Part shown: one piece after another, positions 26,962 to 35,785 of the stretch | How the letters are laid out: each line of letters starts with the position of its first letter | Numbering within the stretch: position 1 is the first letter of the stretch | Source of the DNA: Desulfovibrio sp. A2 | GTDB taxonomy: Bacteria > Desulfobacterota > Desulfovibrionia > Desulfovibrionales > Desulfovibrionaceae | Length of the DNA stretch: 46,181 bases | NCBI RefSeq assembly: GCF_000226255.1 | Contig: NZ_AGFG01000040.1 | Span: 1-46,181, forward strand | Reading direction: 5' to 3' | Position numbers and translations under genes: made by a program | The notes under the pieces: model-generated | Databases searched by the model: none | Seen by the model: the letters and a program-made list of their open reading frames with translations, nothing else | Told to the model about the DNA's origin: nothing

Positions 26962-28038
26962 ATGGACATGAAGATCTGCCTGATGCCGGGCGACGGCATC
27001 GGCCCGGAAATCGTGGAACAGGCTGTGAAGGTACTGGACAAGGTGGCCAAAAAGTTCGGCCACACCGTCAGCTACACCAATGCGCTCATCGGCGGCGCGG
27101 CCATCGACGCCACGGGCGGCCCCCTGCCGGACGACACCGTGGCCGCGTGCAAGGCGGCCGACGCCGTACTGCTGGGCGCCGTGGGCGGCCCCAAGTGGGA
27201 CACGCTGCCCACCGCCATCCGCCCGGAAAAGGGGCTGCTGGGCATCCGCAAGGCACTGGGGCTGTTCGCCAACCTGCGCCCGGCCACCCTGCTGCCCGAA
27301 CTGGCCGGGGCCTGCCTGCTGCGCGCCGACATCGCCGCGCAGGGCCTGGACGTGATGGTGGTGCGCGAGCTGACCGGCGGCGTCTACTTCGGCGAGCCGG
27401 TGTGCGAAGAAGAGCTGCGCGACGGCCTGCGCACCAGCTACAACACCATGATCTACAATGAAGAAGAAGTGCGCCGCATCGCCCGCGTGGCCTTCGAGGC
27501 GGCCCGCAAGCGCAGCAAGAAGGTCTGCTCGGTGGACAAGGCCAACGTGCTGGCCGTGTCGCGCCTGTGGCGCGCCGTGGTCATCGAGGTGGCCAAGGAA
27601 TACCCCGACGTGGAGCTGACCCACATGTACGTGGACAACGCGGCCATGCAACTGGTGCGCTGGCCCGCCCAGTTCGACGTCATCGTCACCGAGAACCTGT
27701 TCGGCGACATCCTGTCCGACGAGGCGGCGGTGATCACCGGGTCCATCGGCATGCTGCCCTCGGCCTCGCTGGGCGCCAGCGGCCCCGGCATCTTCGAGCC
27801 CATCCACGGTTCCGCCCCGGACATCGCCGGGCAGAACAAGGCCAACCCCGTGGCCACCATCCTTTCCGTGGCCATGATGCTGCGCTACACCTTCGGCCTG
27901 GAAAAGGAAGCCGTGGCCATCGAGCAGGCCGTCAGCGGCGTGCTGCGCGAAGGGTACCGCACCGGCGACATCATGGAGGAAGGCAAGACCCTGGTTGGCA
28001 CCGTGAGCATGGGGAATCTGGTGGCGGAGCGGGTGTAA
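26962..28038 (+). CDS. leuB: 3-isopropylmalate dehydrogenase
   Basis: This 358-residue NAD-dependent enzyme oxidatively decarboxylates 3-isopropylmalate to 2-ketoisocaproate. The N terminus [11 protein letters not shown], the substrate Arg region with [12 protein letters not shown], the catalytic Lys in DKANVL, the metal-binding [14 protein letters not shown], and the C-terminal [14 protein letters not shown] segment are all present. The ATG follows AAGGGA. It is the last gene of the leu operon, which ends at the hairpin 28073-28124. Confidence 0.96.
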
Positions 28039-28072
28039 TGCCCTGTCGGACGTGCCCTGCATAAGAAGTAAC

Positions 28073-28124
28073 GGCTGGCGTGCCTCGTTGAACACGTTTT
28101 CTACGAAGGCACGCCAGCCCTTTT
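28073..28124 (+). terminator. terminator of the leu operon
   Basis: GGCTGGCGTGCC (28073-28084) pairs perfectly with GGCACGCCAGCC (28108-28119), followed by CTTTT. The right arm and loop (TTCTACGAAGGCACGCCAGCC) are also the opening of repeat family R, which begins here, so terminator and repeat overlap. Confidence 0.82.
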
Positions 28125-28158
28125 GACCACGCGCGATCTCGTTATGCCTCCGGCGGGT
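28098..28158 (+). repeat. family R element, head only (R1)
   Basis: This copy has the opening TTCTACGAAG and then CTCGTTATGCCTCCGGCGGG, but the three hairpins that normally follow are missing; another copy starts 29 bases later. It shares the CACGCCAGCC variant of the head with the copy at 34.66 kb. Confidence 0.75.
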
Positions 28159-28186
28159 GGGGAACGGCGGCGCGTCCTGTTGGACG

Positions 28187-28455
28187 CGGCTTCTACGAAG
28201 GCAGTCGCGCGCTGTTGAACACGCTCGATCTCGTTATGCCTCCGGCGGGCAAGGGGCCATTGAGCGATGGCCCCTTGCATCCCCGCGCTCCAGGGGGGCT
28301 GCGCCTCCCCTGGACCCCCAGCGTATCCTGCGCCGCATTCTGACGCCGGGCAGCTTCCCTGCGGCGCTGGCGCGCCTCGGGCGATCTGCCCGTCTGAATG
28401 CGATGCGCACAAGGCTCCCGATGCCTTGGCGTAGCTACGGTGCCCCTATCTCCCG
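28187..28455 (+). repeat. family R element, full copy (R2)
   Basis: After the head with CTCGTTATGCCTCCGGCGGG come three hairpins: 28250-28277 (11 bp, CAAGGGGCCAT and its complement), 28289-28314 (TCCAGGGG with CCCCTGGA), and a long one from 28335-28340 to 28396-28401 (GCATTC with GAATGC, inner GGGCAG with CTGCCC). A tail CGTAGCTACGGTGCC follows and recurs in inverted form at 28860. R2 faces R4. Confidence 0.8.
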
Positions 28456-28754
28456 CAGCCTTGGCTTCGCTTTCTGAGCCATTCCACCGACCTCGTTGCG
28501 ACGCGTGTCACGTTCCTTTGACCGGCGAGTCACGGCGTTAGATGCCACCCGTGCCGAATTCGTGCAGTAAAGAAAACCTGCCACTGTCGAAAGCATCACT
28601 CGTCTCGTTGAGGCGAGGGCAACCTGTGTGCGACGATACGCGTCCGCTGCCGAAGATCACCGCCGACGCCTGGCGAGGCGGAAGCTTCGGCGGCGGACGC
28701 GTGCCGCAAACAATGTGTGGAAAGGCCACACTCGCTCGGCCAGACCGGCGAGAG
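28456..28754. other. non-coding centre between inverted R elements
   Basis: These roughly 300 bases lie between R2 (plus) and R3/R4 (minus). They contain an 18-bp inverted repeat, 28638-28655 with 28685-28702 (one mismatch, 29-base loop), and a small hairpin TGTGG-AAAGG-CCACA near 28715. Short open frames here show no gene-like sequence. Confidence 0.5.
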
Positions 28755-28852
28755 CCTTGCGCACATGCGCATTCCGCCGGGCAGATCACCCGAAGGCGCC
28801 TTGCGCCGAAGGGAAGCTGCCCGGCACAGGAATGCGGTGCAAGATGAGCAGG
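28755..28852 (-). repeat. family R element, 3' hairpin only (R3)
   Basis: On the minus strand this is the third hairpin of the family alone: GCACCGCATTC ... GCCGGGCAG, GCTTCCC..., CTGCCCGGCGGAATGC, then GCGCAAGGCTC as in R2. It is a partial copy, placed next to the full copy R4 in the same orientation. Confidence 0.7.
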
Positions 28853-29170
28853 GATAGCGGCACCGTAGCTACGTCAGGACGTCGGGAGCGTTGCGCGCAT
28901 TGGCGTTCTCGTCGGCAGATCGCCCGGAGGCGCACACGCGCCGAAGGGAAGCTGACGACGGCAGGAACGCCGCGCATGAAAATCCGGGGTTCCAAGGACT
29001 TCAGCCGTTAGGCGAGCGTGAAACGCGAGTCTTACGGATGAAGATAGCAGAGCTGGCGGAGCCCCTGGAACGCGGGGGTGCAGGGGGCCATCGTTTCATG
29101 GCCCCCTGCCCGCCGGAGGCATAACGAGATCAAGCGTGTTCAACCGCGCGCGACCGCCTTCGTAGAGGCC
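28853..29170 (-). repeat. family R element, full copy with a loop insertion (R4)
   Basis: Read on the minus strand from 29170, the head TCTACGAAGGCGGTCGCGCG and the CTCGTTATGCCTCCGGCGGG tract match R2 closely. Hairpin 1 (29080-29109) is a perfect 12-bp stem GCAGGGGGCCAT. The second hairpin is split by about 55 foreign bases between CCAGGGGCTCCGCC and CCTTGGAACCCC. Hairpin 3 uses GGCGTTC with GAACGCC instead of GCATTC with GAATGC. Confidence 0.78.
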
Positions 29171-29399
29171 GCATCCAACAGTGCTGTGCTCCCCTCCCTT
29201 TCCGCTTCCGCAAAAAATACGACGGGAGCGAGAACGTTCGTCCTCGCCCCCGTCTGGAGACGCCTCTCCATCCCGAAGGACTATGGTGCCCGGAACCGTC
29301 CGGCCAGCGCGGAACCTTGCGCGGCAACGCCTCTCGCGTTTCCGCCGCCCTGCGCATCCGCGCTTCCGCGCTCCGCGCGCCTTCCCGGCCTACGGCCGG

Positions 29400-29891
29400 T
29401 CAGCGCTGTGCGCCAAACCTGCGGTCCCAGTCGAAATCTCGTCGCGTGACCACATCCTCCATGCGGCGGATGCGGCCTTCCAGCCGATCGAACTTCTCCT
29501 TCAGCCTACGCAGCGCCTCGGCCCGCGAGGACACGTAGCTGCCGTAGAAGTCACGCTCGCCCGCGTCGGCCGGTTGCAGCACCGGGCGCGGCTTCATCAC
29601 CAGCCCGGCCAGCACGTACAGCCCCACCACGGGCCAGAACCCGGTGAACACGGCGGCGGCGACGAACAGCGCGCGCACCATGAATACCGACATTCCGAAG
29701 TGTTGCGCAAGCCCTTTACAAACACCCATCAGCTTTCCGTCACGGGCGCGGTACAGGGTGCGGCGACCCGTGCCGGGCCACTCGCGCGCGGCATCCCAGC
29801 CCTCATCGGGGGCTGCTCCGCCCGTTTCGCACCGGCCCTCGCGGCCCGTTCCGCCACGCCCGGAGCAGCAGTGCCACCCCCCCCCGGCCAC
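29400..29891 (-). CDS. pspC: phage shock protein C (PspC domain), 5' end frame-disrupted
   Basis: The PspC domain covers about residues 44-100 of this frame (TLYRARDGKLMGVCKGLAQHFG, then a membrane segment); a C-terminal coiled-coil segment follows. PspC is a membrane sensor that controls PspA/PspF. The open frame begins at GTG 29891. A better start, ATG 29931 with GGGAGG upstream and 2 bases past the pspB stop, is one base out of frame: a run of nine G (complement of 29877-29885) must lose one G to join them. The gene may be phase-variable, or the base may be a sequencing error. Confidence 0.85.
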   Translation of the reverse strand: MAGGGWHCCSGRGGTGREGRCETGGAAPDEGWDAAREWPGTGRRTLYRARDGKLMGVCKGLAQHFGMSVFMVRALFVAAAVFTGFWPVVGLYVLAGLVMKPRPVLQPADAGERDFYGSYVSSRAEALRRLKEKFDRLEGRIRRMEDVVTRRDFDWDRRFGAQR

Positions 29892-29933
29892 GCCCGGAAC
29901 CCCGGTCGAACCTGTCGCCGAATCCGTTCATGG

Positions 29934-30254
29934 TCATTCCCTCCCCGATCCTCGCGGCGTTGCGCGCTCATCGGACCGCCCACGCCCCGCCGTGCCGTCG
30001 GGGTCGAGCAGCAGCGTTTCCAGCGCCTCCACCCGTTCCTCCATGCGGCCCATGGCCCGGTACATCTCCTGGATCATCCGGGCCTCGTCGTCGTGGGCCG
30101 GGGTGGCCCCCTCGCGGGTGCGCAGCAAGCGGTACAGGATGGCCAGCAGCAGCACGGCCACCAGCGCGGGCAGCACCATGAACCAGAACATCATGACCGG
30201 CCCCAATTGCGCCATGACGGCGAATAGTTCCTCGAACATGTACGGCTCATGCAT
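29934..30254 (-). CDS. pspB: phage shock protein B-like membrane protein
   Basis: This 106-residue protein has one N-terminal membrane segment (about residues 16-42) followed by a heptad-rich helix (MIQEMYRAMGRMEERVEALETLLLD), the PspB layout. PspB works with PspC to release PspF from PspA. Sequence identity to classical PspB is modest and the C-terminal tail is longer. The ATG at 30254 follows CAGAGG. It lies between pspA and pspC on one strand, which supports the call. Confidence 0.8.
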   Translation of the reverse strand: MHEPYMFEELFAVMAQLGPVMMFWFMVLPALVAVLLLAILYRLLRTREGATPAHDDEARMIQEMYRAMGRMEERVEALETLLLDPDGTAGRGRSDERATPRGSGRE

Positions 30255-30396
30255 GCGTGGCCTCTGACTGTAGGGCCGCCGTGCGCCGGGGCATGCGCCC
30301 TGGCGCGGGCGGCGGTATGGCGTACGCCCGGTTCCGGCAAGAGCGATGCCGCGCGGGCATCCAGCCTAGCCTCTGCAACCTGCGGGCGCAAGGCGG

Positions 30397-31137
30397 TTAC
30401 TCCGCAGTGCCGGAAACTTCACCGTGGCGCGGGGCGGCATTGCCCTTGCCGGAACCGGCCGCGCGCTCGTCCACACGGGTGCGCAGGGCGGCCAGTTCGC
30501 GCTCCAGTTCCTCGCGCGTTTCCATGTCCGCGAAGGCCGCATCCAGCCCATTGGGGCCGCCACGGCTGCCCGAGGGCATGCGCACGGCATCGGCCTCCGC
30601 CTCCATGTGTTCCACGCGGCGCTCCAGTTCCTCGAACCGGTGCATCACCTCCAGCGAGGCGGCGCGGCGCACGTCCTCGCGGGCCTGGCGGCGCACCCGG
30701 GCGTGCACGTGGCGCTGCACCAGCATGCGCTGCTTCTCGCGCGCGGCTGCCAGCTTTTCGTCCAGCACATCCATGTCGCCCTGCGTGCGGGCCACCAGCG
30801 CGTCGATCTCGTCCAGTTCGCGGCGCAGCGCGTCGGCGCGTTCGTTCTCGCGGCGGCGTTCCAGCAGCGCCTCGCGCGCAAGGTCTTCGCGGCCGGAGGT
30901 CACGGCCAGTTCGGCCCGGCGGTCCCAGCGGTCCACCTGGTCCAGCACGCCGTCCAGTTCGCGGCGCACCCGGCGAGCCTCGGCCATGCTGGCGGCGCAC
31001 CCGGCCTTCAGTTCCACCAGCGTTTCCTCCATTTCGCGGATCATCAGCCGGACCAGCTTTTCCGGGTCCTCGGCCTTGTCCAGCATGGCGCTGATGTTGG
31101 AACTGACGATGTCCTTGAATCGCGAAAAGATACCCAT
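30397..31137 (-). CDS. pspA: phage shock protein A
   Basis: This 246-residue protein of the PspA/IM30 family is nearly all coiled coil after the amphipathic N-terminal helix MGIFSRFKDIVSSN. It binds stressed inner membrane and, when free, inhibits PspF. The EDPEKLVRLMIREMEETLVEL segment is highly typical. ATG 31137 has GGAGGCGATC upstream. It is the first gene of pspA-pspB-pspC, driven by the sigma-54 promoter at 31181-31196, with pspF divergent. The C terminus is longer than in E. coli by about 20 low-complexity residues. Confidence 0.95.
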   Translation of the reverse strand: MGIFSRFKDIVSSNISAMLDKAEDPEKLVRLMIREMEETLVELKAGCAASMAEARRVRRELDGVLDQVDRWDRRAELAVTSGREDLAREALLERRRENERADALRRELDEIDALVARTQGDMDVLDEKLAAAREKQRMLVQRHVHARVRRQAREDVRRAASLEVMHRFEELERRVEHMEAEADAVRMPSGSRGGPNGLDAAFADMETREELERELAALRTRVDERAAGSGKGNAAPRHGEVSGTAE

Positions 31138-31180
31138 GATCGCCTCCTGCGGTGCGTCGTGCATTGGTGCCTGCGGGAAA

Positions 31181-31196
31181 AGCAGCAACCGTGCCA
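31181..31196 (-). promoter_or_regulatory. sigma-54 promoter of the pspABC operon
   Basis: On the minus strand the sequence TGGCACGGTTGCTGCT matches the -24/-12 consensus TGGCACGNNNNTTGCW in all fixed positions but one. The -12 GC lies about 45 bases before the pspA ATG, giving a leader of about 33 bases. PspF, the expected sigma-54 activator, is encoded divergently 115 bases away; activator sites should lie in 31197-31311. Confidence 0.85.
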
Positions 31197-31311
31197 GCCC
31201 GTCCGCAGGAGGCAACCATTAGCAATCACTGGGAATGACCTCAACACACCGGACGGCGCGCACCGCCCGCAAAACGCATTTACACCAATTACTGGCAAAA
31301 ATCACCAAAAT

Positions 31312-32565
<1,254 letters not shown>

Positions 32566-32639
32566 CCGACCGTAACCAGCTGGCACCACACCGCACCTCA
32601 CCGCATCGCGCACACACCGTCAGCACCACGAGGCACGCC

Positions 32640-34607
32640 ATGTCCCATCCCGATACCTCCGCCACCGTGTCCACCCGCAACATCTACCTCGAAACCCTGC
32701 CCATCGCGGAGGCCGTGGACCGCGCCCGCGCCGCGCTGGACCGCACGTCGCTGGTCCACGCCGAAACCGTAGGCTCGCACGAGGCCGCCGGACGGGTGCT
32801 GTCCGAAGCGGTGTACGCGCGCTATTCCTCGCCCACCATGCACAGCGCGGCCATGGACGGCATCGCCGTGCGCGCGGCCGACACCTTTGCCGCGCGCGAG
32901 GGCAGCCCCGTAACCCTGCGCCGGGGCGAAACCTACCACCCGGTCAACACCGGGCACCCCATGCCCGAAGGGTGCGACGCCGTGGTGATGATCGAGCACG
33001 TGGCCCAACTGGACGCGGACACCGTGGAAATCGAGGCCCCGGCCTTTCCGTGGCAGCACGTGCGGCGCATCGGCGAGGACATCGTGGCCACGGAACTGCT
33101 GTTCCCGCGCAACCACCGGCTGGCCGCCTGCGACGTGGGCGCGCTGCTCTCCGGCGGCATCTGGGAAGTGAAGGTTTGGGAACGGGTGCGCATGCGCATC
33201 ATCCCCACCGGCGACGAGGTGCTCGATTTCACCACCCGGCCGGAACCGGGCGCGGGGCAGGTGGTGGAGTCCAACTCGCAGGTGCTGGCGGCCATGGCCC
33301 GCGACATGGGCTGCGCGGTGGAGCGCATCCCCCCGGTGCCGGACAATCCGGAATCCCTGCGCGCGGCGCTGGCCCGCAGCCTGGACGACGGCATGCACGT
33401 CACCGTGCTGTGCGCGGGCTCGTCCGCCGGAAGCAAGGATTTCACCCGGCAGATCATCGAATCGGAAGGCCGGGTGCTGGTGCACGGCATCCAGGCCATG
33501 CCCGGCAAGCCTTCGCTGCTTGGCGAATGTCGCGGGCGGCTGGTGGTGGGTGCGCCCGGCTACCCCGTCAGCGCGGTGGTCTGCTTCGACGAGTTGGTGG
33601 CCCCGCTGGTGGCCTGGATGGGTCGCACCGTGCCCGCCGACCGCCCCTCCGCCGATGTGCACCTGACGCGCAAGGTGCCCTCCAAGCTGGGGGTGGAGGA
33701 ATTCGTGCGCCTGGCCGTGGGCCGCGTGGGCAACCGCCTGGTGGGCACGCCGCTGGGACGCGGCGCGGGCAACATCACCACCCTGTCGCGCGCCCAGGCC
33801 GTGGCCCGGGTGCCCGCCCTGTCCGAGGGCGCGGCCGAGCATGACGTGCTGCGCGCCCGGCTGACCGTGCCCGAGGCGGTGCTGGATTCCATCCTGGTCT
33901 GCGTGGGCAGCCACGACAACACCCTGGACCTGCTTGCCGACGAACTGATGGGCGGCGAGCGGCCGTTCCGGCTCGTCTCCACCCACGTGGGCAGCATGGG
34001 CGGCATCACCGCGCTGCGCGGCGGCTCGTGCCACTTCGCGGGGGCCCACCTGTTCGACCCGGAAACCGGCGACTTCAATTTCCCCTTCCTGGCCAAGTAC
34101 CTGCCCGACATAGAGGTGCGGGTGGTGAACCTGGCCATCCGTCACCAGGGCCTCATCGTGGGCAAGGGCAACCCCAAGCACATCACCGGGGTGGAAGACC
34201 TGGCGCGCGGCGACGTGCGGTTCATCAACCGCCAGCGCGGCGCGGGCACGCGTATCCTGCTCGACTGGCACCTGGGGCAGGCGGGCATCGCCCCCTCGCT
34301 GGTGCAGGGGTACGACAAGGAAGAGCACACCCACATGGCCGTGGCCGTGAACGTGCTGACCGGCGCGGCCGACTGCGGCCTGGGCATCCACGCCGCCGCG
34401 CGGGCGCTGGGGCTCGACTTCGTGCCGCTGGCGCGCGAACGGTACGACCTGGTCATCCCCGCCGTGCACATGGAGGATGCGCGGGTGCAGGCCGTGTTGG
34501 CGCTGCTGCGGGACGAACGGTTCCTGAAGCGCGTCGAGGCCATGGGCGGGTACGAGACGACGCTGTCCGGGCGGGTGATGGAGAAGGGGATGGGGTTGGA
34601 GGGGTAG
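32640..34607 (+). CDS. MoeA-like molybdopterin molybdenumtransferase fused to a PBP-like domain
   Basis: This 655-residue fusion has a MoeA part in residues 1-410 (SAAMDGIAVRA, EGCDAVVMIEHV, IPTGDEV, ESNSQVLAAM, CAGSSAGSKDFT, and VGAPGYPVSAVVCF), which inserts molybdenum or tungsten into molybdopterin. The C-terminal 230 residues resemble a periplasmic-binding/LysR effector domain, with THVGSMGGI, LFDPETG and FINRQRGAGTRILLDWHL. Such fusions occur in other anaerobes; the PBP domain may bind molybdate, tungstate or a cofactor precursor. ATG 32640 gives a good family N terminus. It follows pspF by 74 bases but is probably unrelated in function. Confidence 0.9.
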   Translation: MSHPDTSATVSTRNIYLETLPIAEAVDRARAALDRTSLVHAETVGSHEAAGRVLSEAVYARYSSPTMHSAAMDGIAVRAADTFAAREGSPVTLRRGETYHPVNTGHPMPEGCDAVVMIEHVAQLDADTVEIEAPAFPWQHVRRIGEDIVATELLFPRNHRLAACDVGALLSGGIWEVKVWERVRMRIIPTGDEVLDFTTRPEPGAGQVVESNSQVLAAMARDMGCAVERIPPVPDNPESLRAALARSLDDGMHVTVLCAGSSAGSKDFTRQIIESEGRVLVHGIQAMPGKPSLLGECRGRLVVGAPGYPVSAVVCFDELVAPLVAWMGRTVPADRPSADVHLTRKVPSKLGVEEFVRLAVGRVGNRLVGTPLGRGAGNITTLSRAQAVARVPALSEGAAEHDVLRARLTVPEAVLDSILVCVGSHDNTLDLLADELMGGERPFRLVSTHVGSMGGITALRGGSCHFAGAHLFDPETGDFNFPFLAKYLPDIEVRVVNLAIRHQGLIVGKGNPKHITGVEDLARGDVRFINRQRGAGTRILLDWHLGQAGIAPSLVQGYDKEEHTHMAVAVNVLTGAADCGLGIHAAARALGLDFVPLARERYDLVIPAVHMEDARVQAVLALLRDERFLKRVEAMGGYETTLSGRVMEKGMGLEG

Positions 34608-34661
34608 GCCTGACGCGCCCATGGGTGGAAGTGGAACGGCGTAGTGCCCCACTGGGCACGG

Positions 34662-34893
34662 CTTCTACGAAGACACGCCAGCCTTTCTGACTACGCCCGA
34701 TTTCGTTATGCCTCCGGCGGACAGGGGGTGTTGTAACGAACACCCCCTGTACCCCCGCGTTCCAGGGGCTCCGCCCCTTGGAACCCCGTGTCCTCATGCA
34801 CCGCATTCTTTCGCCGGTCAGCTTCCCTGCGGCGCACAGCGCCTTCGGGCGATCTGTCCTGCGGAATGCGTATGTGCGCGAAGCTCCCGCAGC
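34662..34893 (+). repeat. family R element, full copy (R5)
   Basis: The head CTTCTACGAAGACACGCCAGCC and TTCGTTATGCCTCCGGCGG tract are followed by hairpin 1 (34721-34750, perfect 12 bp, ACAGGGGGTGTT), hairpin 2 (34760-34783, TTCCAGGGGC with CCCCTTGGAA) and hairpin 3 (34802-34808 with 34864-34870). Hairpin 1 arms differ from R2 and R4 but pair fully. It lies after the MoeA-PBP gene, 100 bases from the Abi-like gene. Confidence 0.8.
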
Positions 34894-34995
34894 CAAGTCG
34901 GAGCATGGGTGCCTTTTACCCCCCCCGTTGCGACGCATGAAACTTCATAAACCAATATATCAACACGTTCCCTGCAATACGACATCGCTTCCCGA

Positions 34996-35670
34996 TTACT
35001 CTCCCATGCCTGACACTCCCGCATGAAATGGTCGTGACCCCGCCCCGTACACGACTGAAAATCTGTCTGTCAGCATTGCCACACGAAACAATGCGGGGCT
35101 GATCCAAAGAATCAACTGTAAAACCAAAGCATGCTGATCCTGTAAGTCTCTGAAATGCCAAACCGGTTCATGGTGAAATATCCTGTTCCTTAACATTCTG
35201 ATCCGGTTGAACGCATCGCTCAAAAACTCCCTGGTCCGGCTTCCCCTTTCGACCCCACGAAATGCATCCTTCATTAACACGGGTACGAGGCTCGGACGAT
35301 ACCGCCTATGCAACAGAGCCGTCCAGAAACCGAACTCAAGCTCTGCTACGATTTTTCCGGCACCATACCCCGCCGGAAGACCGATCTTATCCCGTGCCTT
35401 GCCCACCTGTGCCACCTGATACGCATCCAAGAGACCAGGTCTGTCAAACCAGAACTCCGAGCCGTACTTGGTCGCCAATGCCTCATGCATCGTATTGCGC
35501 AAGGCCACTTCAAGATGCTGAAGAGGTGCATAAAACGATGCGCTTAACTCGGTATTCCAAAGATACCTGAGCACTGCGTCAACATCAGTATCACCCGGGT
35601 ATCGACGATATGCCCGCAACCGCTCCTCAGAAAGCACCCCCTCAATGAATAGCGGAAATACCCCTTGCAA
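34996..35670 (-). CDS. Abi-like protein with a HEPN motif
   Basis: This protein of about 224 residues fits the Abi_2/AbiD-F family of abortive-infection proteins. It begins FPLFIEGVLSEERLRAYRR, has LRNTMHEAL, ELEFGFWTALLHRRY and the HEPN ribonuclease-type motif RNRIFHHE (R161, H166). HEPN proteins of this kind usually act as toxins or RNases that stop growth on phage infection; activity here is inferred. No ATG is in place; TTG 35670 has GGAGG 7 bases upstream, and the frame continues open to 35763. Base composition is clearly lower in GC than the neighbours. No antitoxin gene is adjacent. Confidence 0.78.
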   Translation of the reverse strand: MQGVFPLFIEGVLSEERLRAYRRYPGDTDVDAVLRYLWNTELSASFYAPLQHLEVALRNTMHEALATKYGSEFWFDRPGLLDAYQVAQVGKARDKIGLPAGYGAGKIVAELEFGFWTALLHRRYRPSLVPVLMKDAFRGVERGSRTREFLSDAFNRIRMLRNRIFHHEPVWHFRDLQDQHALVLQLILWISPALFRVAMLTDRFSVVYGAGSRPFHAGVSGMGE

Positions 35671-35762
35671 AGATATGCCTCCATGGTTAAGTATAAGGCG
35701 CAACGCTTGGGAGCAACCCCTCTTGGCCCTGTGCCGATGATGTCCCCAAGCTCTTGAAACCA

Positions 35763-35785
35763 AACCCCGCTTCGGCGGGGTTTTT
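35763..35785 (-). terminator. terminator after the EamA gene
   Basis: AAACCCCGC-TTCG-GCGGGGTTTTT forms a tight stem with a TTCG loop at 35763-35785. On the minus strand it ends the EamA gene (its stop is at 35785-35787) and separates it from the Abi-like gene downstream. The T5 run on the plus strand means it could act both ways. Confidence 0.82.

Follow-up and report, generated by a model that had tools for sequence, protein, structure and literature searches.

What kind of element are the repeated hairpins found behind genes in this part of the Desulfovibrio sp. A2 genome, and what keeps the two sides of their stems complementary? The window analysed here is the whole stretch of 46,181 nucleotides (nt) from contig NZ_AGFG01000040.1, in which a first-pass annotation had described a five-copy interspersed element (copies R1 to R5). 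We found instead one complete composite element at 28073–29182, in which an asymmetric core lies between two inverted arms, and a lone half element (R5) at 34641–34880. The family to which they belong has strongly covarying stems, occupies places shared between species and carries its cores in both orientations. We consider it fairly probable that this is a family of non-coding composite interspersed mosaics resembling bacterial interspersed mosaic elements (BIMEs), inherited vertically and acting both as an operon-end structure and as a substrate for recombination.

Architecture of the composite element

Profile searches for repeat blocks were made in the window and 42 fetched loci, using hidden Markov models (HMMs) of AB (∼73 nt), H (∼65 nt, with two hairpins) and M4 (∼85 nt); profiles for M6, M7 and a core module, M8, were added later. 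The module order is AB(1–5)-H-M4(1–3)-M6-core-M7-M4′(1–3)-H′-AB′(1–4). Half of the 42 module groups (21, from 43 sources in all) are two-arm elements with a centre, 652–1698 nt in length; several of the remaining 21 are cut by contig ends. The relative order of M6 and M7 was constant in all 15 elements having both (with an additional copy in each of L061, L067 and L149), and a codon-model gene finder called no genes within any listed element extent. Each complete copy may thus be described as a long imperfect palindrome, with M6 and M7 on opposite sides of a core that is flanked by inverted arms of AB, H and M4 hairpins.

The profile HMMs place R1 to R4 in a single element, whose right arm consists of R3 and R4 in minus-strand orientation, and we therefore rejected five independent copies. 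The left arm, on the plus strand, opens with two AB units, at 28073–28156 (R1; HMM 28085–28156, direct repeat D1 from 28077, start set by eye) and 28169–28248 (the start of R2; HMM 28177–28248, D1 copy 28169–28249). An H module defined by HMM follows, with hairpin 1 at 28250–28277 (an 11-bp stem, CAAGGGGCCAT / ATGGCCCCTTG, with covariation over 24 copies) and hairpin 2 at 28290–28313 (CCAGGGG / CCCCTGG). Hairpin 3, the M4 hairpin, lies at 28326–28411; it contains the conserved internal loop AGCTTCC / GATCT and scores 88.5 bits with our covariance model of M4 (named R1, a label distinct from the annotated repeat R1). The core occupies 28412–28630 (plus strand), where a degenerate M6 is visible by eye but gives no HMM match, and the middle of the core was unmatched among other centres. 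It is followed by the M7 hairpin at 28631–28704 (plus strand; HMM), a diverged opposite-strand relative of M4 (AGATCACC / GGAAGCT) that the R1 model detects on the minus strand at 28629–28709 (E 9e-7). In the right arm, on the minus strand, there are two M4 hairpins, at 28758–28844 (R3; 106.5 bits) and 28892–28979 (part of R4; 95 bits), then an H module at 29052–29107 (HMM; hairpin 1 stem GCAGGGGGCCAT / ATGGCCCCCTGC) and an AB unit at 29110–29182 (HMM). Over 120 nt the two arms (28177–28296 and 29062–29181) are 90% complementary.

The half element R5, on the plus strand, comprises an AB unit at 34641–34720 (HMM 34652–34720; D1 copy from 34641), an H module at 34722–34786 (hairpin 1, ACAGGGGGTGTT / AACACCCCCTGT, and hairpin 2; HMM and fold) and an M4 hairpin at 34794–34880 (95.5 bits), and its similarity to relatives extends to about 34939. 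The M4 hairpins of both window elements are in the seed of the model. The motifs and stems quoted in the first-pass annotation are all present: TTCTACGAAG at 28099, 28191, 29158(−) and 34663, and TTATGCCTCCGGCGG at 28142, 28234, 29110(−) and 34706 (one mismatch allowed in one search). All three hairpin 1 stems show the quoted pairing; in hairpin 3, R2, R3 and R5 have GCATTC/GAATGC and R4 has the GCGTTC/GAACGC allele.

Hairpin 2 of the right arm contains a small nested insertion (28998–29053, plus strand, limits by eye) that holds GCGAGTCTTACGGATG. An insertion with this string is in or near hairpin 2 in L053, L054, L056, L141, L142 and L147, and the string occurs in 27 of 153 loci, many being overlapping fetches. 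Beyond R5, an open reading frame of 255 aa on the minus strand (34996–35763) was not called by the codon model and may be foreign or decayed.

The stems change on both sides

The first-pass annotation had proposed selection on a folded form, to be examined with a covariance model. We measured M4 pairing with such a model and by anchored counting. In the 23 seed copies, 95.4% of 667 cells are paired and 71 cells show a double change, a figure that is 27.9 for shuffles and that none of 500 shuffles reached; by pairs showing double changes (9; 202 of 500 shuffles) the seed set is not above shuffles, and by further pair types (13; 500 of 500 at least as high) it is below them. For 106 model-aligned sequences, a set that includes M7 and reverse-strand matches and leans towards the model, double changes are seen in 23 of 29 pairs and none of 500 shuffles was as high on any of five measures. 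Hairpin 1 of H behaves similarly over 24 copies, with 99.2% of 252 cells paired and 46 double-change cells (0 of 500 shuffles), although neither the pairs (5; 233 of 500) nor the types (8; 494 of 500) exceed those in shuffles. Slid controls were far lower for cells paired and for covariation score in all three sets. The anchored, model-free count gave 614 of 702 Watson–Crick cells over 117 sequences, where the maximum in 200 shuffles was 481; overlapping fetches were made distinct by sequence alone in this count, so that some copies are perhaps counted twice. As the shuffles ignore relatedness, these figures are not probabilities. The paired changes are real and the covariation is strong, in keeping with a folded form that is either under selection or maintained mechanistically. 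A scan of the AB front gave no clear covarying stem. R5 has a fold z-score of −5.35 (0 of 200 shuffles equally stable), and most of the full element is predicted to fold, as single-stranded DNA, into one long hairpin (a prediction made without shuffles at that length).

Covariation of this kind could arise without function, if selfish or neutral palindromes were kept complementary by template-switch (quasipalindrome) correction together with block gene conversion. The stems do change as whole alleles, with one-sided changes in 0 of 252 cells of hairpin 1 and 3 of 667 cells of the M4 seed set, which favours this explanation. Correction should, however, make perfect pairs, and the asymmetric loop AGCTTCC / GATCT is unpaired and nearly invariant, which argues that template switching does not explain everything; the loop also recurs in M7 and in other genera. 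Given also that the elements occupy places common to different species, we regard upkeep without function as somewhat unlikely.

RNA or DNA form

An RNA helix tolerates G-U pairs but not A-C pairs. Among 82 strong M4 copies, we counted 44 G-U against 43 A-C cells (a comparison with no control RNA), and the balance holds when the copies are split by arm (left 27:24, right 13:18, unassigned 4:1). In the anchored count A-C exceeds G-U, by 26 to 14 in the inner stem and 27 to 21 in the outer. There is therefore no sign in M4 of one functional RNA strand, and the equality also suits upkeep without function. Hairpins formed on both strands, as a cruciform or in replication single strands, or block exchange, fit M4 better. 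M7 in the plus orientation differs, with 32 G-U against 10 A-C cells, although 17 of the 32 are at one pair.

The proposal that the hairpins work in a transcript, as a structured RNA gene or a cis-regulatory RNA, can draw on this M7 excess, on the strong covariation and R5 z-score, and on a location in what would be 3′ untranslated regions. It is opposed by the M4 counts and by the variable number of modules. No sigma-70-like promoter was seen in the regions scanned, and Rfam gave no match at gathering score across the window; at E≤1 in 27950–35000 the one match, at 29398–29426, lies outside the elements and under its cut-off. The window elements being without an Rfam match, a known RNA family was rejected. 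An RNA gene or regulatory RNA is, in our judgement, unlikely.

The window contains no tRNA or tmRNA. Sites of intrinsic terminator type (a GC-rich hairpin with a T-run) numbered 2 and 1, against 1.7 and 1.6 in shuffles. One of the three (28731–28715, minus strand) falls in the stretch that separates M7 from M4′ in the full element, and none is in AB, H, M4 or R5; the elements do not conform to the intrinsic-terminator pattern.

The elements lie behind genes at places shared between species

Both window elements follow genes on the plus strand. The HMM-defined start of the full element lies 48 nt past the end of a leuB-type gene (26962–28038; Pfam Iso_dh, 8e-142), and that of R5 lies 45 nt past the end of a moeA-type gene (32640–34607; Pfam MoeA_N and PBP_like). 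The window and 15 loci give 19 arms that face inward-pointing genes (inner ends of half elements excluded). In twelve of these the interval from stop codon to arm is 13–52 nt and contains no run of five T, which bears out the annotated placement in gaps after genes; another four have a T-run between gene and arm, and three have gaps of 74, 116 and 141 nt with no T-run. Eight arms that face outward-pointing genes are 59–343 nt away.

At the 14 junctions with both neighbours in one contig, the genes are convergent at 7, codirectional at 6 and possibly divergent at one (L062, where the call depends on an unchecked 57-aa frame). Two-arm elements are thus found between codirectional genes too, and their cores are asymmetric; independent half elements, one per convergent gene, were therefore rejected as a general rule. 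Pfam supports 26 of 30 neighbours tested and gives no match for the other four; the neighbours include dnaB, rpoC, smpB, ffh (SRP54), a histidine-biosynthesis gene and a class II tRNA synthetase gene.

Outside the window, 17 loci of the same genome (G000) were compared with relatives. The flanks of 14 of them, which make up 12 junctions since two pairs are opposite sides of one junction, align to an element-bearing syntenic locus in a relative; most of the relatives' loci were fetched for carrying the element, and the proportion should not be taken as a rate of occupancy. For L057, L062 and L068, none of the loci compared was syntenic.

The shared places bear on a further possibility raised by the first-pass annotation, a non-autonomous mobile element, of the miniature inverted-repeat transposable element (MITE) or REPIN kind, moved by a transposase encoded elsewhere in the genome. 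The elements are dispersed, multicopy and inverted, and one junction exists in occupied and nearly empty versions, as would be expected of such an element. However, their places are common to different species, and the near-empty site, the leuB–moeA gap of G038, appears by eye to hold a relic of the element, two short opposed pieces like AB ends, where the HMMs find nothing. No clean empty site was found, hence no target duplication is readable. Y1 (PF01797) was the one transposase family searched for. The search was positive in 5 of 14 control genomes and found nothing in the 83 contigs of the own genome, which is 99.98% complete, and a REP-associated tyrosine transposase (RAYT) was accordingly rejected there. 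Two of 7 relatives, G100 and G066, gave a partial Y1_Tnp match (L174 and L175), in open frames of 74–75 aa, one with an internal stop. Movement by a transposase at the present day is thus not borne out, and we consider the mobile-element explanation unlikely.

Arm sequences appear to circulate and cores lie in both orientations

Among 70 half elements (H plus M4), 44 had their nearest relative at a different locus and 26 at the corresponding locus of another genome; it was never the other arm of the same element. Mean identity between halves was 0.758 for the same locus in another genome, 0.716 for the arms of one element, 0.737 within a genome and 0.740 for the rest. With nearest relatives mostly elsewhere and the places shared, it seems that the places are kept and the sequences circulate; the circulation of arm sequences between loci is also what block conversion without function would produce. 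The likeness of arms at one locus is not above what strictly local descent predicts.

When loci were compared between genomes, the core was found in both orientations relative to its flanks at 6 of 10 loci and in one orientation at 4. Several of these comparisons consist of two genomes, locus F was judged on M6 alone, and the three rows of locus X include one G066 place twice. On a larger scale, the psp–moeA block, which lies between the window copies, is inverted between G000, G085 and G100 on the one hand and G038, G066, G112 and G124 on the other; G136 shows leuB only. We infer that recombination between inverted arms would account for both the core flips and the psp–moeA inversion. In G100, element L093 joins the left flanks of the trkA and amidohydrolase loci of G000, which represents either a rearrangement at the element or a misassembled contig.

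The psp–eamA junction of G124 and G112 (L137 and L135) carries a different repeat after the half element, starting near CCCGTGCGCGGCCTTGGGCGCACGGGG (by eye), with about three copies in L137:2980–3760 and about two in L135.

Distribution and relatives

R5 has 75 matches in its own genome at E≤10, counting R5 itself and weak ones, and 52 at E≤1e-3. The element was found in all 8 genomes examined of this genus of sulfate reducers, and G038, a single-contig genome, has it at about 17 places (40 of 107 candidates scored); the named hits are Nitratidesulfovibrio liaohensis (L129) and a Desulfovibrio metagenome-assembled genome (L128). Across 149 genomes of the family, with at most five candidates scored per genome, R5 matched 10 at E≤1e-5, namely the 8 of the genus and two of the 141 others, where the matches are short (E 3e-6 to 9e-6). 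The ends of G000 contigs C18, C20, C50, C51, C52 and C53 fall in or beside elements, and the repeats probably break the assembly. Neither a phage nor a plasmid origin was supported, as blastn of 28077–29200 gave no match in the phage or plasmid collection, from which close records may be absent.

The covariance model of M4 reached further in the family: at E≤0.01 it matched 12 of the 149 genomes, comprising the 8 of the genus and four from two other genera, three of g40 and one of g27. The last four have E-values of 2e-4 to 0.0096, a level at which about one genome is expected by chance. In a follow-up search the best E-values were 7.5e-5 (G068) and 3.9e-4 (G040), and matches at E≤0.1 numbered 9 in G040, 4 in G068 and 1 each in G137 and G026. 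All 12 of the g40 and g27 loci have an M4-like hairpin with AGATCRCC / GG(A/G)AGCT, followed in the loci read by an H-like hairpin (by eye). These composite repeats share two successive hairpins with the genus element but differ from it in having a single orientation in the loci read and another repeat upstream. An RNA-family search of these relatives gave only rRNA and chance-level matches. Since the M4 model also matches M7 on the opposite strand, the two hairpins appear to belong to a single family.

In the g40 locus L163 (1–1237), a 356-bp tandem unit (3.5 copies, 95% matches) precedes the M4-like hairpin, and similar pieces are found in L162, L164 and L166–L173. A 5S rRNA gene lies upstream of the M4-like hairpin in L166 (g27), L169 and L170.

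A second relative is a hairpin repeat, GCCTCCGGCGG-NCANGGGG, of other Desulfovibrionaceae genera. It corresponds to a block spanning the end of AB and the start of hairpin 1, and is present in 4 other family genomes among 297 genomes of the phylum sampled. It differs from the element in being without the AB front, M4 or a mirror arm in the loci read, which are apparently behind genes (with unchecked gene ends). GCCTCCGGCGG with a hairpin starting (C or G)CA(A/G)GGGG also occurs alone, in L150 (own genome) and in L151 and L152 (another genus of the family).

Comparison with known systems

BIMEs vary in the number of their units, and REPINs are inverted pairs of repetitive extragenic palindromes (REPs). 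In enterobacteria, BIMEs are described as mosaics outside genes, between or behind them, whose palindromic units alternate in orientation (PMC2817692). Our element likewise combines different palindromic modules, in both orientations, into an extragenic mosaic, and is a BIME in the wide sense. In contrast to BIMEs, its modules are 65–95 nt long with several hairpins and follow a set order about an asymmetric core, no REP unit of the GTAG type was recognised in it, and its places are common across the genus. REPs and REPINs are presented as short extragenic palindromes with mostly vertical inheritance (PMC8049555), a general likeness to the element, a REP being a palindrome of 20–40 bp with a GTAG or CGTC tag at one end (PMC3733652). 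The element, at 0.65–1.7 kb, is far from this size. GTAG was found near the unit start in 11 of 131 AB units (only AB modules and GTAG were counted), and identity with GTAG-tagged REPs was rejected. With its own genome lacking a Y1 transposase match, the element falls outside the REP/REPIN definition on the transposase. Of the traits that define a MITE (terminal inverted repeats, target-site duplications and a cognate transposase), inverted arms were seen, no target duplication could be read, and the transposase search covered Y1. The closest known kind is the BIME. The element is undescribed in the titles and abstract openings of the open literature searched, a scope outside which most subscription papers fall, so that a description may be in print.

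Discussion

On our preferred reading, BIME-like mosaics at operon ends, the elements would be old and vertically inherited. They would act at operon ends, where their hairpins might close transcripts or insulate neighbouring genes. Their inverted arms would be substrates for recombination, flipping cores, and recombination between arms probably inverted the psp–moeA segment between the two copies in the ancestry of the window. Both roles, at operon ends and in recombination, are suggested by comparison of sequences.

Several points weigh against this reading. At the codirectional junctions, 6 of the 14, one arm has no gene end before it, and the T-run that precedes 4 of the 19 arms indicates that termination is not the role everywhere. 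The gene limits come from a purpose-built codon model. G085 has the gene order of G000 and no element was detected at either of its psp–moeA junctions, so the link between element and inversion stays an inference. Nor does this reading account for how the copies arose.

A more specific version may be put forward as a speculation that is itself improbable: RAYT-independent, vertically inherited long DNA palindromes would mark operon ends, a putative protein would recognise the AGATCR / GGAAGCT loop in extruded hairpins and shield or close convergent units, and the core and whole gene blocks would be inverted through the arms, whether as a programmed or as a tolerated event.

Composite extragenic repeats are most familiar from cases that a RAYT transposase accounts for. 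The element described here is larger and more ordered, and it persists at shared places with no RAYT-type enzyme found in its own genome; its compensatory changes are very clean, and its cores occur in either orientation. It offers a natural test of whether selection or template-switch correction maintains the complementarity of palindromes, and a test case for mosaics that may insulate the ends of operons.

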